A DNA stretch of 64,000 nt from Polychytrium aggregatum (Eukaryota > Chytridiomycota > Chytridiomycetes > Polychytriales), in the NCBI RefSeq assembly GCF_025602895.1, contig NW_026516208.1, positions 682,001-746,000 on the forward strand. The letters are read 5' to 3'. The translations under genes were made by a program, and so were the position numbers. Below are positions 1-62,810 of this stretch, in pieces. The notes under the pieces were generated by a model that was not told the DNA's origin, ran no database searches, and saw nothing but the letters and a program-made list of their open reading frames with translations. Positions within the stretch are counted from its first letter, which is position 1, and each line of letters starts with the position of its first letter.

Positions 1-1721
1 ACAGTCAAGGACGACGATAGCAGCGACAGCCGCCTGTCCGAGGAGTCGTTCCTGAAGCAACTCGAGTACATGATGCTCCACACCATCACCCTGTGTGGCG
101 TACCCGACATCAAGCGCGTCTTCATTTCGGAAAGCAAGTACAAGACCATCGACGACAGCGGCGTCTTCCAGAGTCTGACGGAGCAATATCTCGAGACGGA
201 TGGAAGTAACTTCAGGGAAGTGCTTTCCTTCCCCGGTGTCGACATGTCGCGCACGTACACCAACTTTACAGTCCAGGTCATGCAAGTCCTCGGTATCGAG
301 GCCACCCGTGCCGCTGTTCTGAAGGAGACCCGCAAAGTCATCGAGTTTGACGGCTCGTACGTCAACTACCGCCATCTTGCCCTGCTTTGCGATATCATGA
401 CTCACCGTGGCCATCTCATGGCCATCAGCCGACACGGTATCAACCGCACCGAGAAGGGCGTCCTGGCTCGCTGCTCTTTCGAAGAAACGGTGGAGCTGCT
501 CATGGACGCTGCTGCGGCAGGCGAACTCGATACTTGCCGTGGCGTCAGTGAAAACATTGTCCTCGGCCAGCTCGCGCCACTTGGAACCGGCGGGTTCTCG
601 GTTATCCTGAACGAAGAAATGCTCATGAATGCCTACGTTGCTCCTTCTTGGGGCTCGGCCCAGGAGCCAGGTATGATGGCCTCCATGGATGGCTCCAAGA
701 CACCGGCCCAGACGCCCTACTGGAACCACAGCCCCAGCCCGATGCCGATGACCCCTGGTGGCGGATACTCGCCTATCGCTCCCGAGTTCTCGCCCTTTGA
801 CAAGCGCGGTGGTGGATGGAGCCCGGCGGCTGGATACCTCCAGAACAGCCCCGTCTACTCGCCAACAAGCCCGCTGTACTCGCCAACGAGCCCAAGCTAC
901 TCGCCAACCAGCCCTTCGTACTCACCCACCAGCCCTAGTTACTCCCCAACGAGCCCGAGCTACTCGCCAACCAGTCCCAGCTACTCGCCAACCAGTCCCA
1001 GCTACTCGCCGACCAGTCCCAGCTACTCGCCAACGAGCCCAAGCTACTCGCCAACCAGCCCTTCGTACTCACCCACCAGCCCTAGTTACTCCCCAACGAG
1101 CCCGAGCTACTCGCCAACCAGTCCCAGCTACTCGCCAACCAGCCCATCGTACTCGCCGGCCAGCCCAAGCTACTCGCCCGCCAGCCCGAGCTATTCACCA
1201 GCATCGCCTTCATATTCACCGGCATCGCCTTCGTACTCGCCCGCCAGTCCGTCGTACTCACCTGCGTCGCCCTCGTACTCCCCCACCTCCCCATCGTACT
1301 CGCCAACAAGCCCGTCGTACTCGCCCACGTCTCCGTCGTACTCTCCAACATCACCCTCGTATTCGCCCACGTCGCCCTCCTACTCGCCTGCATCGCCTTC
1401 ATACTCTCCCACATCACCCTCCTATGCCCCCGCCTCCCAGATGTACTACAACTCTGGCATCAGCCACTCAACTTCTTCGCCGGCCTACGCCCCCTCATCT
1501 TCAACTCCCAGCTATGCGGCCGGAGGCTCAGCCTACCGTCCTCCTGGCCAGCCTGGCGGCTCTGGCACGTCCCAGAGCAACGGGAACCAGAACTACAGGT
1601 AACGTGTTGGCCCGCATCAGTTCGCTTGCCATGTTGGAGCTGCTTGGATCGATGATGCTGGATGTTGTGCTGAGGCTGACCCGTCCTTGCCCTCAGCCCT
1701 TCGTACTCGCCCGCACACTAG
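1..1721 (+). CDS. RPB1: RNA polymerase II largest subunit, C-terminal part with CTD (5' end outside window)
   Basis: This is the 3' end of the Pol II largest subunit. The frame is open from base 1. The first ~210 codons are the conserved C-terminal body (for example [31 protein letters not shown]). A linker leads into the C-terminal domain, which CDK kinases phosphorylate to coordinate capping, splicing and termination. The CTD has 27 heptads (856-1422), mostly YSPTSPS, with Ala at position 4 in seven of them (units 15-20 and 26). The open frame meets TAA at 1600-1602, but that stop lies inside a plausible intron: CAG/gtaacg at 1598/1599 to ccctcag at 1696, with a ctgac branch-like site. Splicing restores phase and gives a terminal exon 1697-1721 reading S-P-S-Y-S-P-A-H-stop, which is itself CTD-like. 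The preferred CDS is therefore join(1..1598,1697..1721). Gene identity is certain; the last exon is inferred from phase and sequence. Confidence 0.95.
856..1422 (+). repeat. CTD heptad array, 27 x 21 bp
   Basis: These are in-frame 21-bp units encoding YSPTSPS or YSPASPS. Units 2-6 (877-981) and 9-13 (1024-1128) are identical at the DNA level, a 147-bp (seven-heptad) offset. This indicates a recent block duplication. A degenerate unit (YAPASQ) follows at 1423-1440. Confidence 0.95.
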
Positions 1722-2410
1722 TGCTCGGTCGCTGAGGCTCGATGTGCCCGAGTCCTGCCAAGATATGAGCGTATGCGCTCGCCCCCGAGTGTACCGGCTC
1801 GCTCTCTTTTTTGTCTGTCTGTTTGTTTTGTTTGATTGAGACCCACCACCACCGATGCCGAGGGACGAGTAAAGTGTATGGGAGCGACTCTTTCTTGCGA
1901 GCATCGACAAAGCGCAATGTATTGCAGTCTACTCGTTGCTGTTGTGCCATGTTTGATGCTCGGCGAATCCGGCGCCAGTGGACAGATTTGGCAATATCAT
2001 TCCGTCCGTCCACATCCACCTCCACACCCATGTGTGCATCTTGGGCGTCTCCAGACCGACCGAGTGGTCTGCGTGTATTCGGGGCAGTGTGCTTGTTGCC
2101 TTGGTCACTTGCGCTGTGCTCGATTCGAGATCTCGCAAGATCCCTCCTCGCGCCACATCCAGCCGCCAAGTTGCCCAGCGGACAGCGGACGGATTCTCTC
2201 TCTCTTCTGATCTGCATCGACCGGCCACCGAGACCAACGACTGCTCTGCAATCGCCAGCCCACACCTTCAACTCTTTCGTCGATCGCCGAAACATCCTAT
2301 TTGCCTCGGCTGGGTGTCCCTGTGCCCTGGTGCTGCCCTCCTCGCTTCCTCACTCTCCCACGCACCACCACCACCCGCTCTCACTCCCCGCACGTCCACT
2401 CGCTCCGAGT
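1722..2410. other. Intergenic, RPB1 to PRP3
   Basis: This stretch holds the RPB1 3' flank and the PRP3 upstream region, which turns C/T-rich before the PRP3 start. Open frames on both strands here are of random type. No gene or clear core promoter motif was recognised. Confidence 0.5.
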
Positions 2411-5336
2411 ATGTCGGATAACAACAAGCGCCAAGGCGACCTCGACGGCGATCGGTCTGCCGCCAAAAAGCCCAAGCTCGACACCCTAGATCAGATCCAG
2501 CAGGCCCGAAATGAGATCCAGGCCAAGCTTGCGGCCATCAAAAAAATGGCTGGCCAGGGTGCAGCACAACCCGGCAGCGAGGCACCCTCTGCACCTCTCT
2601 TGGGGCAGACCGGCAGCGCAGCAGCAGCATTGCCGACGCCGCTGTCAGCATCAGCGCCATTGTCTACACCGTCGACATCGACATCGACATCGTCGCTGCC
2701 GGGGGGCATGACGGATGTAGCCAGGAAAATCGAGGAGGCCAAAGCTCGACTCAAAGCGACCATTGCGGCATCGTCGCAGGCCAGCGTAAGCTTGGGTGCA
2801 GGTGATGGGTCGGGTGAGGAGAGGAGAAAGACAGGAACGTATGAGGCGGGGGGGGGAGACGGAGGCAACTTCCACCAAGTGGCTCACGATCACTGCTGCC
2901 ATCCAGCATTTGGAGCCGACAGCCATTCTTGACGGCCGCGAATCCGGAATAGGAACGGATGCTCTGATGGCACTAACGACCTTCTCATCTGTTCGTCTTC
3001 TCATCTCCGGATGCTGCGACTTGTGGCATCAACGGCTTAGATTCTGTCGCCGGCCCCGCCCGCCGACAAAAGCAAGAGCGGCCTGAACTTCCAGCTCCCC
3101 GACTTTAACGACCCATCGGCGATGCCCAAACCCATCTTTGCGACCACCAAGGCCAACATGCGCATGATGGAGAAGAAGGCCGAAAAGGCCGCCGCGGTGG
3201 CTGCAGAGAAAAAGGAGATCAAGCTCTTGCCCCCACCGAGCAAGGAAGAAGTGTTTGATGTATCCTATTTTGACGAGAAGCTGGCTGTGGCATCGTCGCT
3301 GGCTCCGCGACCACGACCGTCTCGATCGCTGCGGTTTGCGCAAAAGGGCAAGTTTATCGAGCAGGCCAACCAGATGCGGGCCCAGGTGAAGATCGAGCGA
3401 GAGAGAAGTGAGGGCCCCAGAGGGCTCGAGGATGTGGTTGGGTGGAGAGATGGAAGGGAGCTCATGAGGCAGCCGCTTGTCTTTGTTTCAGCGAATCGGG
3501 TTGATCGTTGGTCATTGGCCAGGACGCCGTCGGTGATTTGATTTCGATCATATCGCCCACTGCTTATGCGATGCGATCGATCCTTGTCTTGCAGGCCCAG
3601 CTCGAACAGCTCAAGAAGCAGATCGCCGAAACAGTTAAAAAGACAGGCATGGACGAGAACCTGGATCTTGTCTCTGACGCCGCGATTCGAGTAAGCACCG
3701 ACATCCACTCACGCTGGGACGCTGCATTGGGGACATGAACTTTTGCAACTTGCTGCTACATTGACGAAGCCGAGCGCTTGGCATGGGAGGCGATGTCTTG
3801 CGACTACTCCGCTTCCCTCCTCGTTTCCCTTCTCCTTTCCCTCGCCGTCTCCTGTGTCCCGCTGGATCGGTTGCTGGGAATGTGCTAACGAGTTCGTCAC
3901 TTGGTCCATAAATTTCAGAAAGAGCCCCCGCCGGAAGTGGAATGGTGGGATGTCCAGCTTGTCCCTAATGTCAGCTACGACGAGTTTGATCCCAGCACGG
4001 ACTTTAACGATGAGGAGGATCCGCCAATTACCGAGCTTGTCCAGCATCCGATTCCCATCCCGCCTCCTGCCGAGCCGGATGCACCCGCACCGCGTCCTAT
4101 GATGCTCACGGCCAAGGTATGCAGAGCGATAGGATCGATGGAAGAACTCTTAGAGAGAGAAAAGGACAGTAGCCGAGCATATCTAATCGCTGCAGGGGGG
4201 GGGGCACTTGATAACTTGGCGTATGAGGAGAGGTGGCCATGCAGCTCTGCTCTGTGCTGGGCGGGGGGGCATACTCGCTACCAACGACCGAGTTTGTGGT
4301 GCTCTATCAAGCATCATGGCAGGTTGCACATAGAGGAGCCTAGGGCCACCAGTGCTCGTGTGCGGGTTTCTGTTGAGCTAATTCGTTTGTTCGGGGGGGG
4401 GCAACTCGGATGTACAGGAAAGGAAAAAGCTGCGACGACAGCGTCGACTCGAAGCCCAGCGCGAGAAGCGCGATAAGATCCGACTCGGACTGCTGCCACC
4501 AGACCAACCCAAGGTCAAGATATCCAATTTGATGAGGGTCCTGGGCACCGAGGCCGTGCAAGACCCCACTAAAGTCGAGGCTTATGTGCGAAAGCAAGTG
4601 GCCGATCGCCAACTGGCCCACAAACAGCATAACGAGGCCACAAAACTCTCGGAGGAGGCCCGGCGCGACAAGAAGGAGAAGAAGATGGCCGAGGACACGA
4701 GCAAGTTTGTCCATGTTGCGGTGTTCAAGTAAGCTGATGTCACTGCTTCTGTTGCTTCTACTATTGCGAATTGGGATCTGCAGAGCGCTCAGCAGAAGAA
4801 TGCATCGTCGCAATCAACTGGACAGCGCTGTTCTGATCGCATCTGCATCCATGCTCGCATCTGCATCCATGCTCGCATCCGCATCCTTGCTGGCGTCTGC
4901 ATGCATACCCCGTGATTCCGATAGGGTCGTGGATCTGGGCTGCAAACTACATATCACCAAGATCGACAAGAATGCCGAGCAAAACAAGCTGACGGGAGTA
5001 TGCATCATACATCAAGGTCTGAACCTTGTCATTGTCGAGGGCGGCCCCAAGGGAATCAAGCGATACAAGAAGCTGATGCTGCGCCGCATGGACTGGTCCG
5101 AAACCAGCCAAGACCGCGAGCGAGAAGACGACGACGACGCAGGCTCGGATGCCGAGGGCGACGACAAGCAAAACGGCTGCCAGTTGGTGTGGGAGGGGCA
5201 GGTCAAGGACAGGGTGTTCAAGGGATTCCGTATCCGGCCCTTCCCGACCGACTTTATGGTCCGGGAGTTTCTCGAACGGTTTGGAGTGGTGCACTACTGG
5301 GAGACAGCCAAGAACCTGGTCGAAGTAGGCGCTTAG
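2411..5336 (+). CDS. PRP3: U4/U6 small nuclear ribonucleoprotein PRP3
   Basis: PRP3 is a U4/U6 di-snRNP component needed for tri-snRNP assembly in the nucleus. Six exons, join(2411..2785,3041..3385,3595..3690,3919..4116,4418..4728,4925..5336), keep phase and give 578 aa (human PRPF3 is longer, yeast Prp3 shorter). The N-terminus is lysine-rich with low-complexity Ala/Ser/Thr. The middle carries the PRP3-type segment [14 protein letters not shown]. Next come [15 protein letters not shown] and [22 protein letters not shown], the family signature. The C-terminal domain includes [20 protein letters not shown] and [10 protein letters not shown], and the protein ends [14 protein letters not shown]. 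Intron 4 carries long G runs and intron 5 carries an 18-bp tandem repeat. The ATG at 2411 is chosen because it opens the lysine-rich N-terminus and follows a C/T-rich leader. A final intron after EVGA cannot be excluded but is not needed. Confidence 0.93.
4838..4891 (+). repeat. 18-bp tandem repeat in PRP3 intron 5
   Basis: Three copies of the unit cgcatctgcatccatgct (the last slightly diverged) lie just upstream of the acceptor at 4924. Confidence 0.85.
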
Positions 5337-7065
5337 ATTTCTGATGGCAGCGGTCACAACATGAAATGGGATTCACTTTCCCCTCTTGCCTGTGCGGGTT
5401 CCTTTCCCCAGAGCTCGCAAAATGAGACGGGGGCCTCGCTTAGCTTCCGGCCGTTGCTGCTTTGGATGGAAATACACAAAGCCATCCCCCTCTGTCAAGC
5501 CGGGGGGGGGCAAGGAATATGGCCCGATGTGAATACTCTGCTTTCCAGTACGCAAGAATTGCGTGTGGGATTGATGATCCAGTCATTGATTTGCTCGGCC
5601 CGTCGATTTGCCAACGCGGATGCTACTCAAGGCAGGGACCATAGCGCAGGGACGCTTACCGCAGGGGCATCTACCGTCGCCAACACACGGAGGCGGGCAT
5701 ATGATGCAGACTTGGCGCCCAAGGCCAAGTCCCGACTGCCGCAATTGCATCCGACCTTCTGGGGCGACGGAAAAATAGCGGGAGCAGCGCCGGACGACCT
5801 CTCGAGGCAACGACATGGCTGTCGGACAAGACAGTGCCGTTGAGGCACAACCTTGCCAGGTCGGTGCTGGAGACCCAAGGGCAGATTGGGCATTTTTCCG
5901 ACAGAAGGCGGCGGCAAGTAGCGGCGGCTGGGTCCGAAGCAGAAGTCGGCGGCGGTCGGTGGGAGCGACGAACAGGGCGGGAAGAATGCGGTGGCAGCAG
6001 CAGCCGGAGGCGGAGGAGGAGGATGCGGAAAGGTCAGGACGTTTGGCCAGCCGGGTCGGTGGGGGGGGGCGTTTCCGAGACAGGAACGCAACGACAGCGA
6101 TAGCACGCCCAACACCCCTTTCAACCTACTGCCTGTTGGACAAGCCGGTGGCTGCCACCCATCAAGGGAGGGCGCATGGCGCGGGAACAGAGATTCGGCC
6201 ATGGGCAGTCGCGCGGTCCGGTCTGGTGGGATTTCAAATGGCGGAGAAATGGCGGTTGTCGTCATGGCTCTTGCTCCAAAGACGACGCGACGGGGCTGGG
6301 GGTCACAGCCGACGAGAGTTGGGTGGGTGGAGGCGAATTGGGGGCGATGAGAGTTGGATGGGTGTGGGAGCGATGTGAACAGTGCCCATCGCAATCCAAG
6401 TGCACGCATTGAGTTGGGCCGATGGCCGCGATGCAACAGCGCTGATCGTATCGACAGCCGCTGGATCGGACAGATACATCTCCAACGGCACTCGCGCCAG
6501 CGCAGCCCCATTTGCTGGATGCCTCCACTCCCCCCTCGGCGGCCTCGCGGATCCCAATGCCGGAGCCAAGGCAATCCCGCGCTTGCCTCCCTCCTCCTGC
6601 CAAACTATGGCGTCAGCGATTGCTGCGATCTGCTGTCGACACGCTGTGCTCAGCCGGCCTGTTGATGCTCTCGATTCCCACCCAGCCACTTCCTTGATGC
6701 GACCGCCACTTCCTGTGCTTCCTCCCCCTCTTGCCACCCACCCCCTCGTCGGCGCAATTGACCCATTCGCCGCTCGTCGTCGCTGATCCGCCAGTCGTCT
6801 CGCCATCGCTGCGTCTCCCGCTGTCGTCGCTGCCCCTTGTTCGCGGCCGCTTCCCGCCATCGCAGCCGAGTCCATTTTTCCACGTCGCGCTCGAGCTCCG
6901 ACATGCTGCCGCCAGACCCGCGACTATAAAACCCACCCCTTCGCCGGCCTCCTCTCCATTCCCACCATCAACATCCCAGTCTCTTCTACCAGCCTCTCGC
7001 GGCAGCCTGCACTCCTCATCTCGCTTTGATCTCTTCCCCGCTCCTGCCCTTTCCCACCTCCCAAA
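5337..7065. other. Intergenic, PRP3 to FAS1 gene
   Basis: About 1.7 kb without a supported gene. It is G-rich on the plus strand with 9-base G runs at 5502-5510 and 6061-6069. Overlapping open frames on both strands are low-complexity and show no family signature. The last ~500 bp become C/T-rich and hold the FAS1 promoter. Confidence 0.5.
6924..6931 (+). promoter_or_regulatory. TATA box of the fasciclin gene
   Basis: ctataaaa lies about 140 bp upstream of the ATG at 7066 and is followed by a C/T-rich, ATG-poor leader. The position and context fit a TATA-driven, strongly expressed gene. Confidence 0.6.
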
Positions 7066-8377
7066 ATGAAGTTCTCTGGACTGATCGCCCTTGCCTCGGC
7101 CGCCCTCTTCGGTGCCGCCAACGCTCAGACCACCGACATTGTGTCGGCTCTGGTTGGATACACCAAGAACAACGCCTCCATCATCACTGGCCTGGCCGCC
7201 AGCTCTCCCCTCCTCAGCACCATCAAGAGTGCCAAGAACATCACTCTGTTCATCCCCACCAATGACGCTGTGGCCAAGCTCCCCGCCAGCGTCCTGGCCC
7301 AGCTCAGTGACCAGACCGTTGTCGATACCGTCCTGAGCTACCACGCCGTCCCCGGCATCTCGTTCGTGCCCTCGGCCGACGCCGATCTGTTTGTCCCCAC
7401 GGCCCTGGCCGACGCCAACCTCACCGTCTCGGGCGACGGCTACCAAGTTGTCAACGTCGTTGTCAGCGGCGGCAAGGTTGTCCTCAACCACGGTGTTGCC
7501 AACGGCCCTGCCAAGGTCATCGACTCGGTCGTTGCCACCAACGGTGTGATTCACATTGTCGACACCGTCCTGCTGCCTCCCGTCTCGGTCTCGCAGACTG
7601 CCACTGCTGCCGGACTCACCACCTTGGTTGACACCCTGGTCTCGGCCAAGCTGGCTTCCATTGACTCGCTCAAGGAGGTGGTAAGTAACTTGCCGCCCAG
7701 TCCAGTCCTCCCCAACGCCCTGCCCTGTCTGGTCCAACTGCGACACCTGTGTCCACGCGCCGCATCCCACGCTGTCCACTGACCCGCCTCGATGTCCTGC
7801 TCTTCCCTCCCAGACCATCTTTGCCCCCACCAACGCCGCCTTCAACACTACCCTGGCTGCCCTCAAGTCCGCCAACGTCTCCCTGAACCTTGCCCAGCTC
7901 CAGGCCACCCTTGGCATTCACGTTGTTCCCGGTGTCTATCACTCGACCGACCTGCTCAAGCTCGCCCCCGTTGCCCTTTCCATCGGCACCTACGGCGGCG
8001 AGAACATCACGATCGAGGTCGACACCACTGGCGTCTACGTCGCTGGTGCCGGTAACAGTGTCGCTGCTCGCGTTGTCACCGCCGATGTCCTGGTCAACAG
8101 CGGTGTCGTTCATGTCATCGACACCGTCCTGCTCCCCAGCACCAAGCTCCTGACCTCCCTGGCCTCCAACACCGACGGCCTCACCGTCTCCCAGCTGAAC
8201 CCTGTGACTCCTGCCGTCCTCGGCAAGACCTTCACTGTCCCCACCCCCTCGGCTGCTGCTCCCAGCCCCAGCACCACTGGCTCTGCCCCCGCCCCCAAGA
8301 GCGCTGCGGGCCGCACTGTTACCAGCGCCTCTCTCGTTCTGGGTTTCTCGGCCATTGCCGCCGTCCTGTTTTTGTAA
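7066..8377 (+). CDS. Secreted, probably GPI-anchored protein with two fasciclin (FAS1) domains
   Basis: The two exons, join(7066..7680,7814..8377), encode 392 aa. A signal peptide is clear (MKFSGLIALASAALFGAANA, residues 1-20). FAS1 domain 1 spans about residues 21-170, with an H1-like ITLFIPTNDAV and an H2-like IHIVDTVLLPP. Domain 2 spans about 180-335, with TIFAPTNAAF and VHVIDTVLLPS. A Pro/Ser/Thr-rich spacer follows, then a hydrophobic C-terminus (LVLGFSAIAAVLFL) with no charged tail, typical of a GPI signal. FAS1 proteins act in cell-surface adhesion or wall organisation. The codons are strongly biased to C-ending forms, which with the TATA box suggests high expression. The ligand is unknown. 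The gene is convergent with the NRPS-like gene. Confidence 0.92.
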
Positions 8378-9124: not shown

Positions 9125-12100
9125 TCAGTGGCGGCCGGTGCGGGTGAAGGGACGGACATCGGGATACTCCTCGTCCTTGAGCTCGGTCTCCGCCGCCGTG
9201 GGCTGGTCGAGATAGGACACCCGATCCAAGTGGAAGAGACTCTTCCTGACGACCAGCTCGGGCGAGGGACACGGCGTCGGGTAGATCGAGCGAGTGTTGG
9301 TGTTGTCGACCCTGAAGGACAGGTCCATCAGCATCCGCATGAACGCAAGCAGAGCGTGGTTATCGGGCGATGGGTTGCGCCAGATGACCGTCCTGAACTT
9401 TTCACGGGTATCCAACATGATGATCCAGCCAACGGAATTGGCGATCTCGAAGACACGCTTCTCGGTGATGACACTGTGAGTGAGTGTGTGAGTGAGTGAG
9501 TGAGTGAGGGGTGATTGCGATGGCCCACGATGTCCGCCATCAAACATGTCAATATGCAACCCACTCAATGCCAAGCACAACATCGACTGACACCCACACT
9601 CACACTCACCCTCCACTCCACTCCACACAATCCTCACCTGTGCTCCGAGTCGCTGATGTGGAACACAAACTTGGACAGCGCCTCCTCCGAGCTGACAATC
9701 TCGGCAATCACCTTGGCAACATGGTCGACGGGATCCATGGTCCAAGTGACGGGACTGGCGTTTGCCGGGCAAATGCCGAGCTTGATACATCCCTCGACGT
9801 ATCGCCAGATATAGTCGTCTGTGTTGCACACTGGAGGATGGAGTGAACAGGGTGAGAAACAGTGTCAGTCGATGGATGGGTGCCACTCGACAAACAAGAT
9901 CATCGGCTCATGGCCAAGTCGAGGGAACGAAGGAGGGAATCTCCACCACATCACCACATCACCACACCACTACACCACACATCATCACACCACCACAGCT
10001 CACCTCCGTATCCGCTGTCGCCAGCAATCATCGCTGGCCGAATGATGGTTGCAGGCACGCCCCTCGATCGTGCCTTGTTGATCAGCTGCTCAGAGACCCA
10101 CTTGGTCTGCGAGTAGCCGCCCGACAGGTTCCAGTTGGAGTACATTTTCTCCTCGAGCGGCTTGTCGGAGCCCTTGGCCATGGCAATCGTCCCGATGGTC
10201 GAGATGTAGTGCACCACCTTGAGATGGTGCGTCGTGGCCAGCTGCAGCACCGTCACCGTGCTGAGGACGTTTGTTGCCTTGAGCTCGTTGTAGTTGTAGA
10301 GCCAGTGCACCTCGGCGGCGTTGTGCACAATCATGTCGGTCTCTTCGCAAATCTCCTTCCATCGCTCGTCCGAGAGTGCCCATCGCTCCTTGGAAACGTC
10401 GCCGCGCAGACCAACCCACCGGTCTCGCACGTCATACCACGGATCGTTCTTGTTCCGCGATGCAATCACCAGCCTCGAGGCGTTGGAGTAGGTGCGGAGG
10501 AAGGCCAGTTTCTCGGTCTCGGTTCGTGCCAGACAGTAGATCTTGGCCCGAGGGAACTTGTGTGCCAGCTCAAAGATCAGGAATGCTCCGAGGAAGCTGG
10601 TTGCACCCGTCAGGACGATGCCGCGGACCTCCTTGGGATAGACAAACGGAGGGAAACCCTCGGCCGTCACACTCGCATCGTCGAGCTTGGCAGCCTCGGC
10701 AGCCAGATCGATTGTCGGCGGAATCACCAGCTTGTCGTCGAGAATGTCGACGACCAGCTGGGCGACATCCTTGGGACTCATGCTGTTCGACAGCAGGATC
10801 ATTGGCGAGATCTCGACACCGTACTCCTCCCTGATGGCGAGGGCCAGGCGGCCGATGCTCAGCGAGTCAAAGCCGACGCCGCCAATGTAAAAGTTGCGGC
10901 CGTAGAGACCAGGGTTGTCCAGGATCTGACTACTGAACTCGGAGATCTTGAAGGCAATCTTGGTCAAGAACGTTCTGGTGACGATGAGAGCCGGGTACTG
11001 GACCGCCTGGCCGTACTGCTCGACGTTCTCGGCGATGCGCTTGAGCTTCTTGAGATCGACCTTGCCCGAGTCGTTGAAGGGGAATGCGTCGAGCTTGAGG
11101 CAGTTGTGGACGGGGACCTTGGAGACGTTCAACAGCAAAAACATGTCCTCGACGACTCGGATGATATCGGCCGAGGTCAGGTTGGGGTTGTATCCTTCCT
11201 GAGGGATGTAGAGCAAGATGATCTTCCTCTCGGAGGTGTGGATGAAGTAGCAGTCGGCAATGACCTGGGACAGGTGCTTGTGGACAAGCTCCTTGAGGCC
11301 GTTGAGGTCGACATAGACACCGTTGACCTTGATCTTCTGGTCGAATCTGGAGGGTGAAGTGTGAGGTGAGGTGTGAGGTGTGAGGTGTGAGGTGTGAGGT
11401 GTGAGAATGAAAGTGATCAGTATCCAGCGAGCAAATGGATCGGTGTCCCAGATTGTGGATGGCAGTTCTCATGGATCAAGCACACAATAGTCTCCAGACT
11501 CACCTTCCAACAACACTGAACTCCTTGTCGCTGATCATCTCGACCCAGTCCATGGTGCAGACTCGGGGCGAGCCATCCACGAGGAAGCCGAAAGTCGACA
11601 GCTTGTCGTTGGGATCGGCGTTTACAAAGCTCGGATGGTCCTTGGCAGGATGTTCGGGATCGACGGCAAAGACCAGGATTCCGCTGTTGGAGTACCGTGG
11701 ATCGATGATTTCGCCTTTCTCGTCAAACAAGAGGCAGCGCACGCCAGGTTTGGCTTGCTTGTAGACCAGCTTCTCTGGGATGCGATCGTCCGTTTGGATT
11801 CTCAAATATGATATAGCACCAATGACTGTAGACTAGTACCAATGCTATGATTAGTGATTGCTCAATGAGATGACCATTTAGAATGAATGAATGTACTTTA
11901 CCTCGCTAGATCCATATATCGACTGAATTTCGGCATTTGGGAAAATATCCCTGATTTTGTGAATGATACTCATGGGAATATACTCTGAACCAGTTATAAC
12001 CTTCTTCGTGATTCCCCACAGGATGTCAGGCTTCAACGACACCGCAGTGTTGATTACCAGCTTCATGAACGAGGGAGTCTGAAAGGGGTGGATGACATTA

Positions 12101-17706: not shown

Positions 17707-20052
17707 ATGAGCATTGATTTCGCAAACGACCCTGTCTGGAGCGACATCACTCCAATCCCGCAGGACGACGGGCCAAACCCGGTTGTTCCGATTTCATATT
17801 ATCCAAGCTGTAAGCTCTGCTTTGAAGCCGATGGCTCGTGTGCAGCGACCCAAAGACACCTTCCCCCCTTTCCGTCTCGAGAGCGGCTGGGCTTATCCAC
17901 CCTGCTCTGATAGGGGCATCACACCCAACCGCTGCAGTCTTCCGCAGATACATATTCTTCACCGGTTGTCACGACACAGTCCCCGGAGCTGTGTCTCCTC
18001 AGAATGTTAACGCATCTGCGATGTTTGGCATAATCAGACAGGGTTGCCACCGGCTATTTCCGGGCGATCGTAGCCCGCAAAGAGTTCAGCCCCAGGGTGC
18101 TGGACCTGACGGATGCAATCCTGCAGGACAACCCGGCCCACTACACCGTGTGGTAAGCTAAGGGCTCCGTTGCCAAGCCTCAGCGAGGAACACTCTTGCG
18201 AGCCCTCGTCCCCCATACTCAATCCAATCAAAGAACTCAAGGAGTTTTGAGTATTTGACTCGGTTGCTGTTTGGGGCTCTAACCGGAGGATGATCGATGC
18301 GATACAGGAAGTATCGACAGGACACTCTCATGGCAATTAACCATGACCTCGAGGAAGAGCTCAAATACATTGATCAAATGGCCGAAGAAAACCCCAAGAA
18401 CTACCAGATCTGGTGGGTTAGGAGATGGGCCGAGCACTCTGGCCACTGATGCGGTCGCAGTGAGCGGTCGTAGATGGGGTCCCGATCTCGCAAAGGAGCT
18501 TGTTGGTAACGACTCACCGACTCGACGAACCAATGATACTGTCCAGGCATCACCGCCAGGTTGTCATCGAAAAGCTGAACGATCCAAGCCGTGAGATTGC
18601 ATTCATCAACGCATCGCTCGCTGGGGACTCCAAGAACTATCATGCGTGGACCTACAGGTACCGACGGTGACCATAGCCAAAATATCAGCAAATACCTTGG
18701 GAGCGTGATCTGGACGTGCGGTTGTTTGAATGCCTCGTTGACGGTGCAATGAGGGATTGTGGCTAGTTTGCTAGGTCGTGTAGGAGAAATGACGGGCGAC
18801 ACTGATGCCGATGCCGATGCCGATGCCGATGCCGATGCCGATGCCGATGCCGATGCCGATGCCGATGCCGATGCCGATGCCGATGCCGATGCCGATGCCG
18901 ATGCCGATGCCGATGCCGATGCCGATGCCGATGCCGATGCCGATGCCGATGCCGATGCCGATGCCGATGCCGATGCCGATGCCGATGCCGATGCCGATGC
19001 CGATGCCGATGCCGATGCCGATGCCGATGCCGATGCCGATGCCGATGCCGATGCCGATGCCGATGCCGATGCCGATGCCGATGCCGATGCCGATGATTCT
19101 ATCCATTTGTCGGTATCGCCCGTTTGCTCTACAGACAGTGGCTGGTCAAGCACTTTTCACTCTGGAATCGCGAGATCATCGACATGAACCGTTTCCTCGA
19201 CGAAGACGTATTCAACAACTCGGCCTGGAATCAGCGCTACTTTGTGTATTCGCAGCGACCAGAGAAATGGGTCCCTGACGAGATCCACGATGAAGTCAAG
19301 TAAGTGACCCAAGCGCATGCATCGAGTGGTCGTGAACCGGCTTGCGCTCCAACGATATGCATTGTTGGGTTTGATGCCCGTCGCCGGTGTCATGGCTCAT
19401 CTGGTGCATGGCGCTCATTCAAGCGAAATACTCTGAGGCTACCCTAGTCGCAAATCGCTAACACTTTGGCCCGCGATAGGTACACCCTAATGAAGATTGC
19501 GATTGCGCCAAACAACGAGAGTGCGTGGAGCTACTTGAAAGGGTAGGGCTACACTCCGTGCCGCACGCTCCTGTAGGGCTGCGAATACGCTGTCGACCAG
19601 TTAATTTGTGCTGGGAGGATGCGAGCTGTCTGTGTTCGTGGTGCTTACAGTGTTATCTCATGCGTATTCCCGACGGCATTCGAATGACTGGGACCGATGT
19701 GGCACAGCATTGTGGTACTTGCGGGTCAGAAGCTGTCGGATTATCCCGAGATTGTCGATGCCTCCGAGAAAGCGGCGCTTGAACTCAACTCCACATTTGG
19801 GCTCGTGGCACTTCTGGATATCCTGACAGAGCAAAACGATATCAGCAGAGCGAAGCAGGTTTGTGGCGTTGTGGGTGGCCCGGGTGCAGATTTCCCAACG
19901 AAAGCGCTTCGTCATCGAATATGCCTGACCAATGCAACTATCGCCTCTGACATCTGTGCTCGTCTGCGTGCGCACAGATCTGTCAGGTCCTGGAGCACCA
20001 AGACTCTGTCCGCCAGGCTTACTGGAAGTACCGAGCGGAGCAGCTCCCATGA
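17707..20052 (+). CDS. FNTA: Protein farnesyltransferase / geranylgeranyltransferase type I alpha subunit
   Basis: Eight exons, join(17707..17809,18038..18152,18308..18412,18547..18657,19135..19299,19480..19542,19708..19858,19978..20052), give 295 aa in uninterrupted phase. The protein is the shared alpha subunit of the CaaX prenyltransferases that modify Ras, Rho and other small GTPases in the cytosol; in yeast it is Ram2. The N-terminus [19 protein letters not shown] is diagnostic. Prenyltransferase alpha repeats follow: [45 protein letters not shown] and [11 protein letters not shown], spaced as in the family. The C-terminus [18 protein letters not shown] matches the family end. Intron 4 is mostly a GATGCC hexamer array. 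Introns often split the repeat Trp codons (TG/G), so the exon borders follow the helical repeats. Confidence 0.95.
18804..19091 (+). repeat. Hexanucleotide microsatellite (GATGCC)48 in FNTA intron 4
   Basis: Forty-eight perfect, uninterrupted copies fill 288 of the 477 bp of the intron 18658-19134. Because the unit is 6 bp, all frames stay open and give dipeptide polymers (Asp-Ala and Pro-Met on plus; Gly-Ile and Ala-Ser on minus). These are not genes. Confidence 0.98.
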
Positions 20053-56205: not shown

Positions 56206-56526
56206 ATGATCTTGTCGACTCTCTCTGCCGTCGCCCAGCGCCTCGCCTCGCGCCCGCTGCTGCCGGTCTCGACCCCGATTCTCGCGCCCATCTCAAACTC
56301 ACTACTGGCAGCCGGCTCAGCCGCAGCCCCGTCTATCTGGGCCGGTGCAATGGCCATGCCATCGTTGTCGGCCCTGACGGCGCCGTGCACATGCATGCAG
56401 ACCCGAGGATACAAAGTCAAGACCTCGCTTAAGAAGCGATGCGAACACTGCTACTTTGCCAAGAGACGCGGACGTCTCTATGTCATTTGCAAGGAGCACC
56501 CCCGACACAAGCAGCGCTCCAAGTAA
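56206..56526 (+). CDS. Mitochondrial large-subunit ribosomal protein bL36m
   Basis: A single exon of 106 aa. The first ~65 residues are a Ser/Ala-rich presequence without acidic residues, fitting mitochondrial import. After [14 protein letters not shown] comes the bL36 zinc-binding core [26 protein letters not shown], with three Cys and one His in the bacterial spacing. In yeast the equivalent is Rtc6. The ATG at 56206 is chosen because it starts the presequence. The upstream frame is open but repeat-derived. Confidence 0.95.
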
Positions 56527-57918: not shown

Positions 57919-60900
57919 TTAAGCCTGAGCGGCAAAAGAGCCCACCACCCGCTTTCGCTTGGTGCACTTGTAGATGTTGTAGCCGAGGATGCCCAGGACG
58001 ATGGCGCCGCAGAAGGTTCCAAGGTAGACCCAGCGCAGGATGATTTGGTGCTCGGGGTGGGCAAGGTCGAGGGGGTCGACGGTGATGCCAAGGAAGAATC
58101 TAGCAATGTTGTAGCCGACACCGGCAAAGATGGCCAGGTTCCAGATAATCGGAAAGACGTACTGCTGCCACTTGGACATCTTGGCGCCGAAGCGGGAGGA
58201 CGTTCCCCATCCGTTATCCCAGAGGAAGAGGATGGCGTGGATTTTGGCTGCCGATGCGAAACCCAAATCATGTCAGTCGCGACAGCACGACAGTGGTGCA
58301 TTTGAGCAAGTGCGAATTGCGCACACGATAGCAGAGACGGGTGCGCACGTTTGTGGTGCATGGATATGGGGATGGGTATGGGAGGTCCAGCAGGTGAGGC
58401 CGCTGAGGCAGTGTTCCGCCAGAACCGAACAGCAGAAGCAAGATGCATGCATGAATGGCCTACCGAGCATGAGACCGTGCAAGTACAGGAATCCGTAAAA
58501 GGTCACCAGGAGGAACTTGACATTTTTGGTGATGACCACAGCATAGAGAGACTTGAGGAAGCCCATGAGCAGCAGGATGTTGGCCCAAGTGAGCAGCAGC
58601 CGAAGACTCGACTTGGGGTTGTAGAGGACAGTGAAGAAGGCGTACATCAGGATCCACGGGTAGATAAATTGGAAGAGCAGCTCGTATCTGGAAGGGACGG
58701 CGGATGCATTAGATTGGGAGCAAGTGGCAGAGGTGGCCCCACTTGTGTATTGGGACAGCCACTGATGGAGATGCGCTGTCACTTACGCCATCCACAAGCT
58801 ATGACGGTGGAACCAGCGAGCGTTGAAGAGGGCCTCTCGGTAGAAACTCTTGCTCCAACGGGTCTGCTGGACAATCCATCGGATGAACTGGGTCGGGGTT
58901 TCGGTCAGACACCAGGCATAGTGAGTGTAGACGACCTGCTGGCCAAGCTTCAGTGTGAGGTTGGTCCTGAAGGAGGAGATCGCAGGACAGAGGGATCAGT
59001 ATTCGACAGGCAGGCGACACCACACACGCCACCCAGATATCGATACATACAAGTGACGATCGTCTCCGTAGGTGCACTGAACTCCAAGGAACTTTTGGCT
59101 GACCCAGGGTTCGATGATCTCGCGGATGATCTCCGTTCGGTAGATACCGAGGGGTCCAGAGACACATCCAACACACTTGTGGAAGGACTGGCAGGCTCGC
59201 TCAACATTAAAGGCTCCCCAGTAGCGGAGTGCCGAGAGGAAGGAGATCCAGTTGTCGTCGTTCCAGATGCGGACGTCGCCGGTGGCAGCGCCGACCTTGG
59301 GGTCGTCGAGCATGAAGGCAAGCTCCTTGACGGCGTTGCAGTCCAGATAGGTGTCCGAATCGGTGACCATGATGGCGTCGGTGGGGATGCAGCTGAGGAA
59401 GACATGGAAGCCGCAGTACATGGCGTGGCGCTTGCCGCCGTGCTCTGGAGCGAGTGTGAGTGTGAGTGTGAGGATTGCACGAACGACAGTCAGTGGCCGG
59501 CAAGTTGGTTGATCACGGCGGTGGCAGCCACGGCCAGCAATCGGCAGCAGCGGATAGGGCCAGATCGCAGCACATACTCTGCAGAATGCAAATGGGGCCC
59601 TTGGCGCCACGCAGCTCGGTGTACAAGGCCTTGGCCTCTGGCGACTCTGAGCCGAGTTCAGGCATGTTGAAGCCAGGCACGATCACAGTGGCATCTGGGC
59701 CAAAGACCTCCTGGAAGATTGTGCCCATGTACTCGTCCTCCTTTTCGTCGCCGTCAACAACCATGATGATGCCTACGGGTGGCGGTAGCGCAGAAATGGG
59801 CAAGGATCAGCCGAGCGCTCGAGTGGACCAGAATTAACAAGCAGAGGATGGATGCGGGTTGAACAACTCACGGCGAAGGTTGTCATACTGCAGAGCCTTG
59901 CAACTCTCGAGACACTGGCGGTAGAGCTCGGGGTCCTCGCGGTAGCCGACAATCAGCACACCGGTTGCGAGACCTCTCCAGTTCGCAGGGCGGTTGCGGA
60001 CCAGCCGGTTGACACGGACTCGGTTGGCCTGAGCAAAACAGCCCTGCACAAAGTAGTGGAGGACGACAAACAGGCCGTAGAAGCCCAGGCCGAGGGCCAC
60101 AACGTTGCTGCTGATGATGGGAATGTGCAAGGCATATCCTGTGGAGCCATACAGCAAACAGCAAATCGTTCATGAGAGGGAGGACCGACAAGGATGTTGG
60201 GCAGGCGGAGCAGCGAAATAGAGTTCGTTAGTGTTTCGGCATTGGCGAGACAAAGCACAGCAGAGGCCAACGTGGCCAGTCCGCGACGGAGCGAAGAAAG
60301 TGATCGGAATGAAGAGGACGAGCCCCGCCGGCGAAACAAGGGCAGCCGCCGATAAGACAGTCCGCCCGGTACTGCCGACGGGGGAGCAAGACAGAGTCGC
60401 GAGGAGTCGGGAGGACAGGCTCGGCTGCGGAAGCGACAACACAGAGGCCAAGAGGGGCCAGCGAAAGCAGTCGGATGGTGGTCGGCGGCTGCGAATAGAT
60501 GCAGGAGGGCCGTGAATGGGACACAGAGGGGAGCGGGAAAGGAATGGGAGGAGACCGAGAGCGGCGGGAATGGACGGCAATACAGGAGGGGAGGGGAAGG
60601 CCGAGGCGGCAGTGTTCGAATCCTGTCCATCGGGGGGACTCACCGATGATGACGGGCAGAATGAGAGCAAAGCCGGCCGAGAAGGTGAAGAGGATCTTGA
60701 ACCACTTCTCGAGTCTGGGCTCCTTCTTTTTGTTGAACCTGCGGCTGCCGGTGCCGCCGAGCCGTGGTAGCGACAGCGTGCGGAAGCGGTGTGAGTGCTG
60801 GCGAGAGGCCGTTGGGTATTCGGTCATGTCTTTGGCGCCGTCGACGACACTGTCGGCGGCAACCATGGTCTGCTGGCTGGAGGACATGGAGCGGATGGAG

Positions 60901-60959
60901 GGGTCGAGAGATGGAGGAGAGTGCTTGACGTCCTTGAGCTCGACCGAGAACGGGTTCAT
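57919..60959 (-). CDS. Hyaluronan-synthase-like membrane glycosyltransferase (GT2)
   Basis: Seven exons (complement of 60959..60644, 60138..59872, 59772..59578, 59444..59051, 58966..58787, 58687..58464, 58247..57919) keep phase exactly and give 634 aa. A cytosolic N-terminus (~85 aa) precedes two TM helices. The catalytic region has YREDPELYRQCLESCK, VVDGDEKEDEYM, KHGGKRHAMYCGF, TDSDTYLD, SALRYWGAFNVERACQSF, CVSGPLGIYR, GDDRHLTN and CLTETPTQFIRWIVQQTRW. Five TM helices follow, with GWGTSSR after the fifth TM helix. QQTRW, VERACQSF, SGPLGxYR and GWGTSxR together mark the class I hyaluronan synthase family of vertebrates and Cryptococcus Cps1 rather than classical chitin synthases, which have QRRRW. 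Such enzymes polymerise UDP-GlcNAc and UDP-GlcA and export the chain. A chitin-like product cannot be excluded from sequence. Confidence 0.9.
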
Positions 60960-61199
60960 AGCGCGGCAGGCAAAGGAGGCGAGACGGCGGCGGTGGGAGG
61001 GGGCTTTGAGGATGTGTCCCGGTGATGCGCACGACAACCCAGGGGAGGGGAGGTGATGCCGATGGACGGGTCCACGGGAGACGAGGCACTGGGCGGGAGA
61101 GAGACGGCGACGAGCAGGCAGAGCCAAGAGCAAGTGCGAGTCCAAGGGCAAGTTCAGAACCAAATCCAAGACCGAGTCCAAGACCGAATCCAAGCCAAC

Positions 61200-61258
61200 G
61201 GCGACTTGAAAAGCGACTCCAAAAGCGACTTAAAAAGCGACTTAAAAAGCGACTCCAC
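61200..61258 (+). repeat. 12-bp repeat (gcgacttaaaaa type) upstream of the HAS-like gene
   Basis: Four to five units, gcgacttaaaaa or gcgactccaaaa, about 240-300 bp upstream of the HAS-like start codon. Confidence 0.85.
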
Positions 61259-62228
61259 AGCCCCGAACTGCCGATTCTCCCCCCCACACCCGCCGCCCAC
61301 TTTGCTTCCGAGAAGCAAGCGCGAGAAGGCTGTTGCCGACCCCGCCGCGCCGCGGGCCAATCGCCGTCGAGCCAGTGGCGCGTCGTGTCTTTGGATTGTT
61401 CCTGCCCGCGCTTGGCGTCACACATGTACCACCGCCCGCGCGGCACCTGAGCGCTCTGTCTGTGTGCCCCTGCCAGCCGCCGTGGCGCTGTGCGACGCGC
61501 TTCCCTGCTGCGCGCCGGCGACGCGTCGCGCAAAGACAAGCGGCATCCGCATTGGTTGCTCTTTGTCGGCCCGCTCGGCCGCCCATGGGATCCCTGGGTG
61601 GCCACAATACGGCTGGCCAGCGGCGTCGGGACTGTCGGCGAGCTGCGGTGTGCTGTACTGCGTTGCGCTGCGAGAGTGGCGGCGATGGACGGCATCGATG
61701 ATGGTGCTGCTACTCGCACGATGAACATGATACTTGCAATATGGTGCTGCTACTCGCAATATGAGGATGATACTTGCAAGATGAGGCAAAGAAGCTGGTG
61801 TTTCATGTCCTGGCAGCGGATGCTTCTGTTTGTCGCAAACAGGATCGCTCGCGCGTCTGTCCTTGTGGCCTGGGCCTTTGCCTGGGCCTTTGCCTCGGCC
61901 CTTGCCTCGGCCCGTGACCCGCCGCCCTGTTCCGCACAGTCAGCCTGTGCTGCCGTCTGTCTCAGCTTCCGCGTTGCACAGCGCTTCAGACTCCCCCCCC
62001 CACCCGCCGTGCGCCTCTGCGCCGTGATTGCTCGGGGTGCCTGGTGGCGTGGGATGTGTCCACCGCGACGGCACACCGGCTGGCCCTGTGTCGACTGTGC
62101 GCCAAACCTTGGCCGTTGCACACCTTGGCTCGGCAGACACAACCTTCCCCGCACATACGACAAGGCGCGGCCTTCCCCCTTCCGTTCCTTCCGCGCACGC
62201 AAGGCTTGGGCAGGTCAGGATTGGTGTC

Positions 62229-62277
62229 AGCATCGCCATCAGCATCGCCATCAGCATCGCCATCAGCATCGCCATCG
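62229..62277 (+). repeat. 12-bp tandem repeat (agcatcgccatc)
   Basis: Four copies, followed by diverged units (ggcattgccatc), in intergenic DNA downstream of ORC4. Confidence 0.9.
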
Positions 62278-62810
62278 GCATTGCCATCTGTGTCTTCATT
62301 GCCATCAACACCGCATTGGCGTTGTCTTCATGCCCCTCCCTTCCCCTCCCCAAAAAACCATGATCGAGCTGGCTTGCAGTCCGGCGAGCACACCCGCTGG
62401 GCCGTGTTCTCGGCGCTCATGTCGCTCTGCATATCTCCGCTCCTCTAGATCTCTTGCGGCTTGTCCGCCTTGCGCCGTCAGCTTCCCCAGATCTTGCCCC
62501 CGCCGCAGCGGCCGCATCCGCCGAGCTGAGCTTGCTTCTTCCTAACCGGCATTGACCCTGCGTGCATGCAGCCAGACATGAGCAAGGATCAGCATCGATG
62601 CTTCGTGCGTCAGAGATCCGGACAGACCCAGACTCGGATCCAAACGCTGCCCGCCGAGCGCAGAGGGCCCCGACTCGCGATCGGGAGAATGCCACCGCCG
62701 CCTCGCAGCGGGATGGAAGATCGCCGCCGCGGACCGCCAGACACGCGCGTGCATCGATCGGAATCTTGGGACAATCATGCCCCGTCACCGACGGTCTGCC
62801 GTCCACATCC

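Follow-up and report, generated by a model that had tools for sequence, protein, structure and literature searches.

A gene family of the hyaluronan synthase type in a probably flagellate, early-diverging fungus

The 64,000-nucleotide stretch of Polychytrium aggregatum contig NW_026516208.1 analysed here (positions 682,001 to 746,000; hereafter the window) carries on its minus strand, at 57919-60959, a seven-exon gene, referred to as gene A, whose product is placed by database matches, topology tests and mapped residues in the hyaluronan synthase (HAS) family and not among the chitin synthases. Protein A is probably a membrane-embedded synthase that makes polysaccharide processively and belongs to the vertebrate and Chlorella virus type (Class I-NR), acting by the mechanism proposed below, and its most likely product, judged from characterized relatives, would be hyaluronan or a very similar polymer of N-acetylglucosamine (GlcNAc) and glucuronic acid (GlcA) laid down outside the plasma membrane. 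The structure of the gene, its family placement, the retention of the mapped residues, the presence of a UDP-glucose dehydrogenase (UGDH) in the genome and purifying selection on the enzyme core are direct observations. An earlier interpretation, made from the letters alone and hereafter called the sequence-only reading, had proposed a HAS-type enzyme at this position.

Structure of gene A

Splicing of the window DNA joined the seven exons (Table 1) in phase into a protein of 634 aa, as the sequence-only reading had described, and all six introns (505, 99, 133, 84, 99 and 216 bp) have GT-AG borders. The GC content of the coding sequence is 0.79 at third codon positions and 0.47 at the first and second positions. 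A second allele, located on contig C22 and 99.69% identical across 6,050 bp, has exons of equal length and encodes an identical protein, with a first intron of 501 bp rather than 505 bp. The preserved phase, the GT-AG introns, the GC-rich third positions and the identical allelic protein argue that the gene model is not a chance reading.

The four motifs singled out earlier were all located in protein A, with VERACQSF starting at aa 340, SGPLGIYR at aa 355, QQTRW at aa 424 and GWGTSSR at aa 538. The protein has a single glycosyltransferase family 2 (GT2) domain with DxD, GDDR and QxxRW motifs, as for a Class I-NR HAS, and the gating loop WGTSSR aligns at its expected place. A hydropathy scan reported one segment on the N-terminal side (aa 87-105), one within the glycosyltransferase domain (aa 268-286) and five C-terminal segments; the second N-terminal segment, which the scan did not report separately, was placed in exon 2 by alignment. 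The five C-terminal segments agree with the count in the transmembrane (TM) layout first suggested (two helices, catalytic domain, five helices), but one of them, at aa 516-534, directly precedes the WGTSSR loop, the position at which interface helix 3 sits in solved HAS structures (PMC11750622). Given this position, a layout with two TM helices on the N-terminal side, four on the C-terminal side and an interface helix appears to fit protein A better.

Family placement of protein A

Protein A matched the Pfam models Glyco_tranf_2_3 (50.3 bits), Chitin_synth_2 (44.7 bits; cut-off 27) and Glyco_trans_2_3 (37.9 bits), the second of which is described as also matching hyaluronan synthases (PMC5122149). 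Its best NCBIfam model was that of the rhizobial synthase NodC, at 148 bits, well below the equivalog cut-off of 550. The PDB chains matching A at E <= 10 comprised only five distinct sequences, every one named hyaluronan synthase: Xenopus laevis HAS1 (XlHAS1; 3e-105) and four versions of the Chlorella virus enzyme (CvHAS; 2.7e-99 to 1.5e-98), their source organisms being those given in PMC11750622 and PMC10939387. The match spans aa 77-574 of A, and identity over the compared fragments is 40% for XlHAS1 and 38% for CvHAS. In the search for bacterial relatives, one scan of genome contigs yielded only acidobacterial GT2s, 24-26% identical to A (17 of 40 candidate stretches); among the plasmid matches listed (25 of 269 records) a Lactococcus protein reached 35% and NodC proteins ~24-28%, and the phage search returned a single record at 28.9% identity.

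Phylogenetic inference was performed with IQ-TREE on 27 rows and 265 columns, comprising A, its paralogues B and C, XlHAS1, CvHAS, viral and plasmid GT2s, three NodC, chitin synthases and other GT2s of the same fungus, and acidobacterial GT2s (five of the 17 loci were aligned). The HAS references were one vertebrate and one viral sequence, with no Class I-R row. Four of the 31 aligned rows (L085, L074, L018 and L020) were left out of this main tree, which holds six of the eight division-2 chitin synthases; the division 1 and division 2 labels were assigned here from Pfam matches and motifs.

A, B, C, XlHAS1 and CvHAS formed one group at 100/99 support, and did so again at 100/99 in a smaller tree of 17 of the 31 rows, which took in neither the acidobacterial GT2s nor the division-1 chitin synthase nor the phage row (L102). 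Forcing A, B and C together with the six division-2 chitin synthases of the fungus cost 77 log units (approximately unbiased (AU) test, p-AU 6.5e-8), and forcing them together with the three NodC cost 69 log units (p-AU 4.5e-15). Two other identities for A were rejected on this basis: chitin synthase, by the tree and the AU test, with QQTRW and GDDR in A as against QRRRW and GEDR; and NodC, by the AU test and by a score far below the equivalog cut-off. The sequence-only reading had preferred HAS over chitin synthase, and this preference is borne out by the PDB matches, the tree, the AU tests and the residues described below; the gene does not fall within the chitin synthase clade.

Within the group, the fungal, vertebrate and viral HAS could not be put in a branching order (p-AU 0.22 with 27 rows; 0.389 and 0.392 with 17 rows). 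A, B and C stood as a group of their own at just 84/86 in the 27-row tree, and the 17-row tree left C, XlHAS1 and A+B in an open fork. A recent acquisition of A from a virus is conceivable but not supported; the gene is interrupted by six introns, occurs as alleles and shares intron sites with its paralogues. A small group of GT2 genes in the same genome (C146:528010-528968 and C372:50412-51367; rows L075 and L096), with QRRRW and SWGGPR ends, branched separately from the HAS and from the chitin synthases.

Conservation of active-site residues

Eighteen donor, acceptor and channel sites were mapped by alignment. The residues are those named in PMC11750622, except D203 and C297, which were added here, and offsets in the numbering were chosen to make each named residue fall on its named letter. 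The count, which covered all 31 aligned rows, revealed that A, B and C each agree with CvHAS at 18/18 sites and with XlHAS1 at 17/18. Agreement was 13/18 in NodC (3/3 rows), 12/18 both in the fungus's own division-2 chitin synthases (8/8 rows) and in its other GT2s (3/3 rows), 8/18 and 7/17 in its division-1 chitin synthases, and 8/18 in the acidobacterial GT2s (5/5 rows). NodC and the division-2 chitin synthases both depart from the HAS residue, in CvHAS numbering, at R247 (Glu), C297, T298, Y299 and D301 (Glu). HAS are thereby separated from these two groups by the arginine of RYW (Glu in both), the Cys-Thr before GDDR and the second position of GDDR itself (GEDR); in protein A the first two correspond to R333 and to C383/T384.

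Outside known HAS and the three fungal proteins, all 18 sites were found in a protein of the Lactococcus plasmid pUCCL637C (L098, NZ_PP589723.1). Here, at 1105-3522, a gene annotated as nucleotide sugar dehydrogenase, which among NCBIfam models scores best with that of UDP-glucose 6-dehydrogenase (499.5 bits, below the cut-off of 757), is followed by the HAS-like glycosyltransferase gene. The adjoining dehydrogenase suggests that the 18-residue set goes with the use of UDP-GlcA, and the locus is a candidate plasmid-borne locus for hyaluronan or another GlcA polymer.

The viral collection also contained HAS-like sequences. A 22.8 kb IMG/VR contig (L076) encodes at 1426-2577 a 383-aa HAS-like synthase with 35% identity and 17/18 sites, which groups beside the HAS clade; neighbouring frames resemble, by eye, an HNH endonuclease and an exonuclease of the phage type, and the contig is filed as viral. 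Two further synthases from this collection (L077, 1150-2616; L078, 1423-2838) carry QQTRW[ST]K and 17/18 sites and form a separate group in the tree. In phage GX15bay (L102, MK557849.1), at 1165-3636, a GT2 synthase adjoins an annotated endoglucanase; with 11/18 HAS sites, it is not HAS-like.

Paralogues and selection

Searching the genome (64.7 Mb, 418 contigs) with protein A identified the two further paralogues. Paralogue B lies on the plus strand at C375:775036-777682, ~32 kb away from A, encodes 636 aa and has an allele on C203. Paralogue C, on C168, is otherwise conserved, but in the assembly its exon 6 (about 150175-150395) is shifted out of frame by a net single base, which may reflect either an assembly slip or a broken gene. 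In the alignment B is 69% identical to A, and C is 63% identical across the 426 aa preceding the break. The intron borders of the three genes mostly coincide, with C lacking the fourth intron.

Comparison of the A and B coding sequences indicates that the enzyme core is under purifying selection and that the N-terminus is loosely kept. The ratio of nonsynonymous to synonymous divergence (dN/dS) was 0.20 at aa 160-440 and 0.32 at aa 86-634, and reached ~0.72 for aa 1-85 (68 codons, dS > 1). The ~85-aa N-terminal extension noted in the sequence-only reading is thus real, the first TM helix beginning at aa 87, but weakly constrained.

Substrate supply and host

A route to UDP-GlcA, on which the sequence-only reading had made its case depend, is present in the genome: domain matches identified one UGDH locus, at C223:1372257-1373542. 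Against the PDB, its joined exon pieces matched UDP-glucose 6-dehydrogenase 5w4x (2.1e-158), which we take to be the human enzyme, at the top of the UGDH-type chains; other chains of this type drop to 220 bits and less past the first 14 rows.

Chitin_synth_2 gave 71 frame matches in the genome, a figure that includes alleles, separate exons, GT2 genes of other kinds and the HAS genes themselves, and DM10-domain proteins, which we take here to be axonemal or flagellar, are encoded at C1 and at C112/C360. The chitin synthase matches and the DM10 proteins indicate that the host is probably a flagellate (zoosporic), early-diverging fungus, in agreement with the kind of host proposed from the letters alone.

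Predicted mechanism, product and alternatives

The activity of A, its substrates and their alternation, and the nature and location of its product are predicted from solved homologues at ~40% identity. A single cytosolic GT2 domain (DSD, the GDDR base and QQTRW) would bind the two donors, UDP-GlcNAc and UDP-GlcA, one after the other. A primer of GlcNAc would stack at the acceptor site, GlcA and GlcNAc would be added alternately, the WGTSSR loop would shut over the donor, and the chain would exit via the enzyme's own TM channel, where R333 and R342 would help to retain it. In XlHAS1 the counterparts of these arginines, R287 and R296, were mutated in the product-length study of the structure paper (PMC11750622). 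UDP-GlcA would be supplied by the cell's UGDH.

Several points weigh against a hyaluronan-making role. The residue set is not proof of hyaluronan, as 17/18 sites are also found in the three viral-collection proteins (L076, L077 and L078), whose product is not established, and the eukaryote-type HAS references number only two, both partial. The presence of UGDH lends weak support, since UDP-GlcA synthesis is predicted across the Chytridiomycota generally and UGDH feeds UDP-xylose as well (PMC8092308). A search for GH88 gave no match while its control worked; searches for the hyaluronidase family GH56 and for Xlink gave none either, but the controls of both were silent too. The many chitin synthases of the fungus use UDP-GlcNAc, which makes a GlcNAc-only product of A conceivable.

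The alternative that survives best, although we consider it unlikely, is that the HAS-family fold of A makes a different GlcA-containing wall heteropolymer, with another linkage or partner sugar. The product specificity of GT2 synthases is not readable from sequence alone, Chytridiomycota are predicted to produce many nucleotide sugars (PMC8092308), and the product of the Cryptococcus synthase Cps1 is itself described as not yet fully proven (PMC10939387). The 18 mapped sites of A, GlcNAc acceptor contacts included, nevertheless equal those of enzymes proven to make hyaluronan. Highly improbable, in our view, is a NodC-like chitin or chito-oligosaccharide synthase using UDP-GlcNAc alone: the NodC and Chitin_synth_2 scores and a genome rich in chitin synthases would fit such an enzyme, but the AU tests reject a clade with NodC or with the division-2 chitin synthases, A has GDDR and not GEDR, Arg and not Glu at R333, and a C383/T384 pair unlike both groups, and Chitin_synth_2 is known to match HAS.

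Least probable of all is membership of A in another fungal HAS-like group, either Cps1/ZtGT2, with an outer-wall role in surface growth, or the recCHS class. The first group is linked to HAS through domain cd06434, presumably NCBI's GT2_HAS. ZtGT2-like proteins found with this domain occur in some chytrids (PMC5653360), and recCHS, the N-terminal part of which is closer to HAS, is reported from one chytrid, Batrachochytrium dendrobatidis (PMC5122149); but Cps1 is filed as a candidate with the streptococcal Class I-R enzymes (PMC10939387) whereas A groups with Class I-NR, and the C-terminal part of recCHS is chitin-synthase-like whereas both halves of A are HAS-like, the PDB match extending across them.

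The preferred reading of A as a Class I-NR synthase opens onto a broader one, which we put forward tentatively and with some doubt: zoosporic fungi would produce genuine hyaluronan, using up to three versions of a synthase of vertebrate type, polymer and enzyme would predate chordates within the opisthokonts (or have been transferred among fungi, algal viruses and chordates), and cells of the chytrid kind may be coated with hyaluronan.

Comparison with known systems

The review by DeAngelis and Zimmer assigns to Class I-NR the enzymes of vertebrates and of Chlorella virus PBCV-1 (PMC10939387). XlHAS1 (PDB 8SMM, 8SMN and 8SMP) resembles A in its GT2 core, QQTRW motif and WGTS-R gating loop, and in the two arginines kept as R333 and R342. 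It differs in that A has the N-terminal extension, WGTSSRFG in place of WGTSGRK and Y385 in place of Leu, and in that the activity of A is a prediction. PBCV-1 HAS (PDB 7SP6-7SPA and 8SNC-8SNE), the reference matched at 18/18 sites, is paired in the virus with its own UDP-glucose dehydrogenase (PMC5408694); A, in contrast, is a cellular seven-exon gene with paralogues, alleles and a long N-terminus. NodC is a GT2 synthase of the same superfamily and the best NCBIfam model, but differs from A in its 13/18 sites, GEDR, the Glu at the RYW position and the rejected clade. The likeness of Cryptococcus Cps1 and Zymoseptoria ZtGT2 to A lies in their being fungal GT2 surface-polysaccharide synthases; Cps1 is described as resembling pneumococcal Cps3S and, less, streptococcal HAS (PMC10939387), and A is set apart from it by description only. 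The likeness to Cps1 that the sequence-only reading drew from the motifs of A is not supported here.

Fungal proteins near vertebrate HAS have been published. The HAS1 tree of Crisp 2015 underlies the claim that fungi were the source of chordate HAS (PMC4358723), and Salzberg 2017 gives Lichtheimia ramosa as the best non-metazoan match, at 333 bits, and offers rate variation as an explanation (PMC5422933). Compared with these by description only, A differs in its host, a fungus that is probably flagellate, and in being one of three genes there. As such relatives are in print, the kind of enzyme is already known, and what stands out here is the probably flagellate host and the three copies. A surface glycan, called unexpected for this lineage in the sequence-only reading, is for the same reason less so, the more as King 2017 reports ZtGT2/Cps1 relatives in some chytrids (PMC5653360).

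Hyaluronan is generally presented as a polymer of vertebrates or chordates that is made also by a few bacteria, by chloroviruses and perhaps by Cryptococcus; some reports place it in mussels and tubeworms as well (PMC10939387, PMC12383584). A 2025 paper describes the polymer in mussels and lists four possible orthologues of HAS for the protostome O. fusiformis (PMC12383584), so that an origin of hyaluronan outside chordates is already under discussion. Among the records listed in our literature searches, none described hyaluronan, or a synthase for it, from a zoosporic fungus; this does not prove absence, and the HAS family may be among the chytrid relatives of ZtGT2 found by King 2017. The conserved HAS gene family, in a probably flagellate fungus that also has a source of UDP-GlcA, provides a specific enzyme for testing fungal hyaluronan; the fungal origin of chordate HAS is disputed, and a probably flagellate fungal lineage is needed in a proper HAS family tree.

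Upstream region and other features of the window

Table 1. Exons of gene A and adjacent features, in window coordinates
Feature	Position	Strand	Evidence
Exon 1: start codon, cytosolic N-terminus of ~85 aa, first TM helix	60644..60959	-	splicing; exon lengths as in the C22 allele
Exon 2: second hydrophobic N-terminal segment (from alignment), start of GT2 domain (VGYREDP)	59872..60138	-	splicing, allele, alignment
Exon 3: GT2 domain, VVDGD motif	59578..59772	-	splicing, allele, alignment
Exon 4: GGKR, DSD, RYW..VERACQSF, SGPLGIYR, CTYGDDRHL; catalytic core with acceptor and donor sites	59051..59444	-	splicing, site mapping
Exon 5: QQTRW motif	58787..58966	-	splicing, allele, alignment
Exon 6: two TM segments and beginning of interface-helix segment	58464..58687	-	splicing, allele
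Exon 7: gating loop WGTSSR, final two TM segments, stop codon	57919..58247	-	splicing, site mapping
Upstream region of A with five short tandem arrays	60960..62810		TRF; arrays 61159-61194, 61201-61254, 61700-61786, 61868-61912, 62227-62288
Ribosomal protein L36 gene, downstream neighbour of A	56206..56526	+	Pfam PF00444, E 1.4e-19

The 1.85-kb region upstream of A had been described as repeat-rich and as a sign that the gene has its own regulation. It does contain five tandem arrays, with a modest total of 284 bp, but such arrays are frequent across the window (48 overlapping TRF rows) and therefore imply no special regulation of A; the proposal of its own regulation is not supported. On the downstream side, the product of the L36 gene looks mitochondrial, judging from its N-terminal extension, and the gene lies outside the system.

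The domain scan of window frames covered seven of 11 candidate frames and the L36 frame. A frame at 7030-7779 has a fasciclin domain, and one at 9954-11468 has PP-binding and NAD_binding_4 domains and is possibly a reductase of the Lys2 kind. At 18804-19095 the window contains a perfect GATGCC array of 48.7 copies, which reads in frame as a long Met-Pro repeat.

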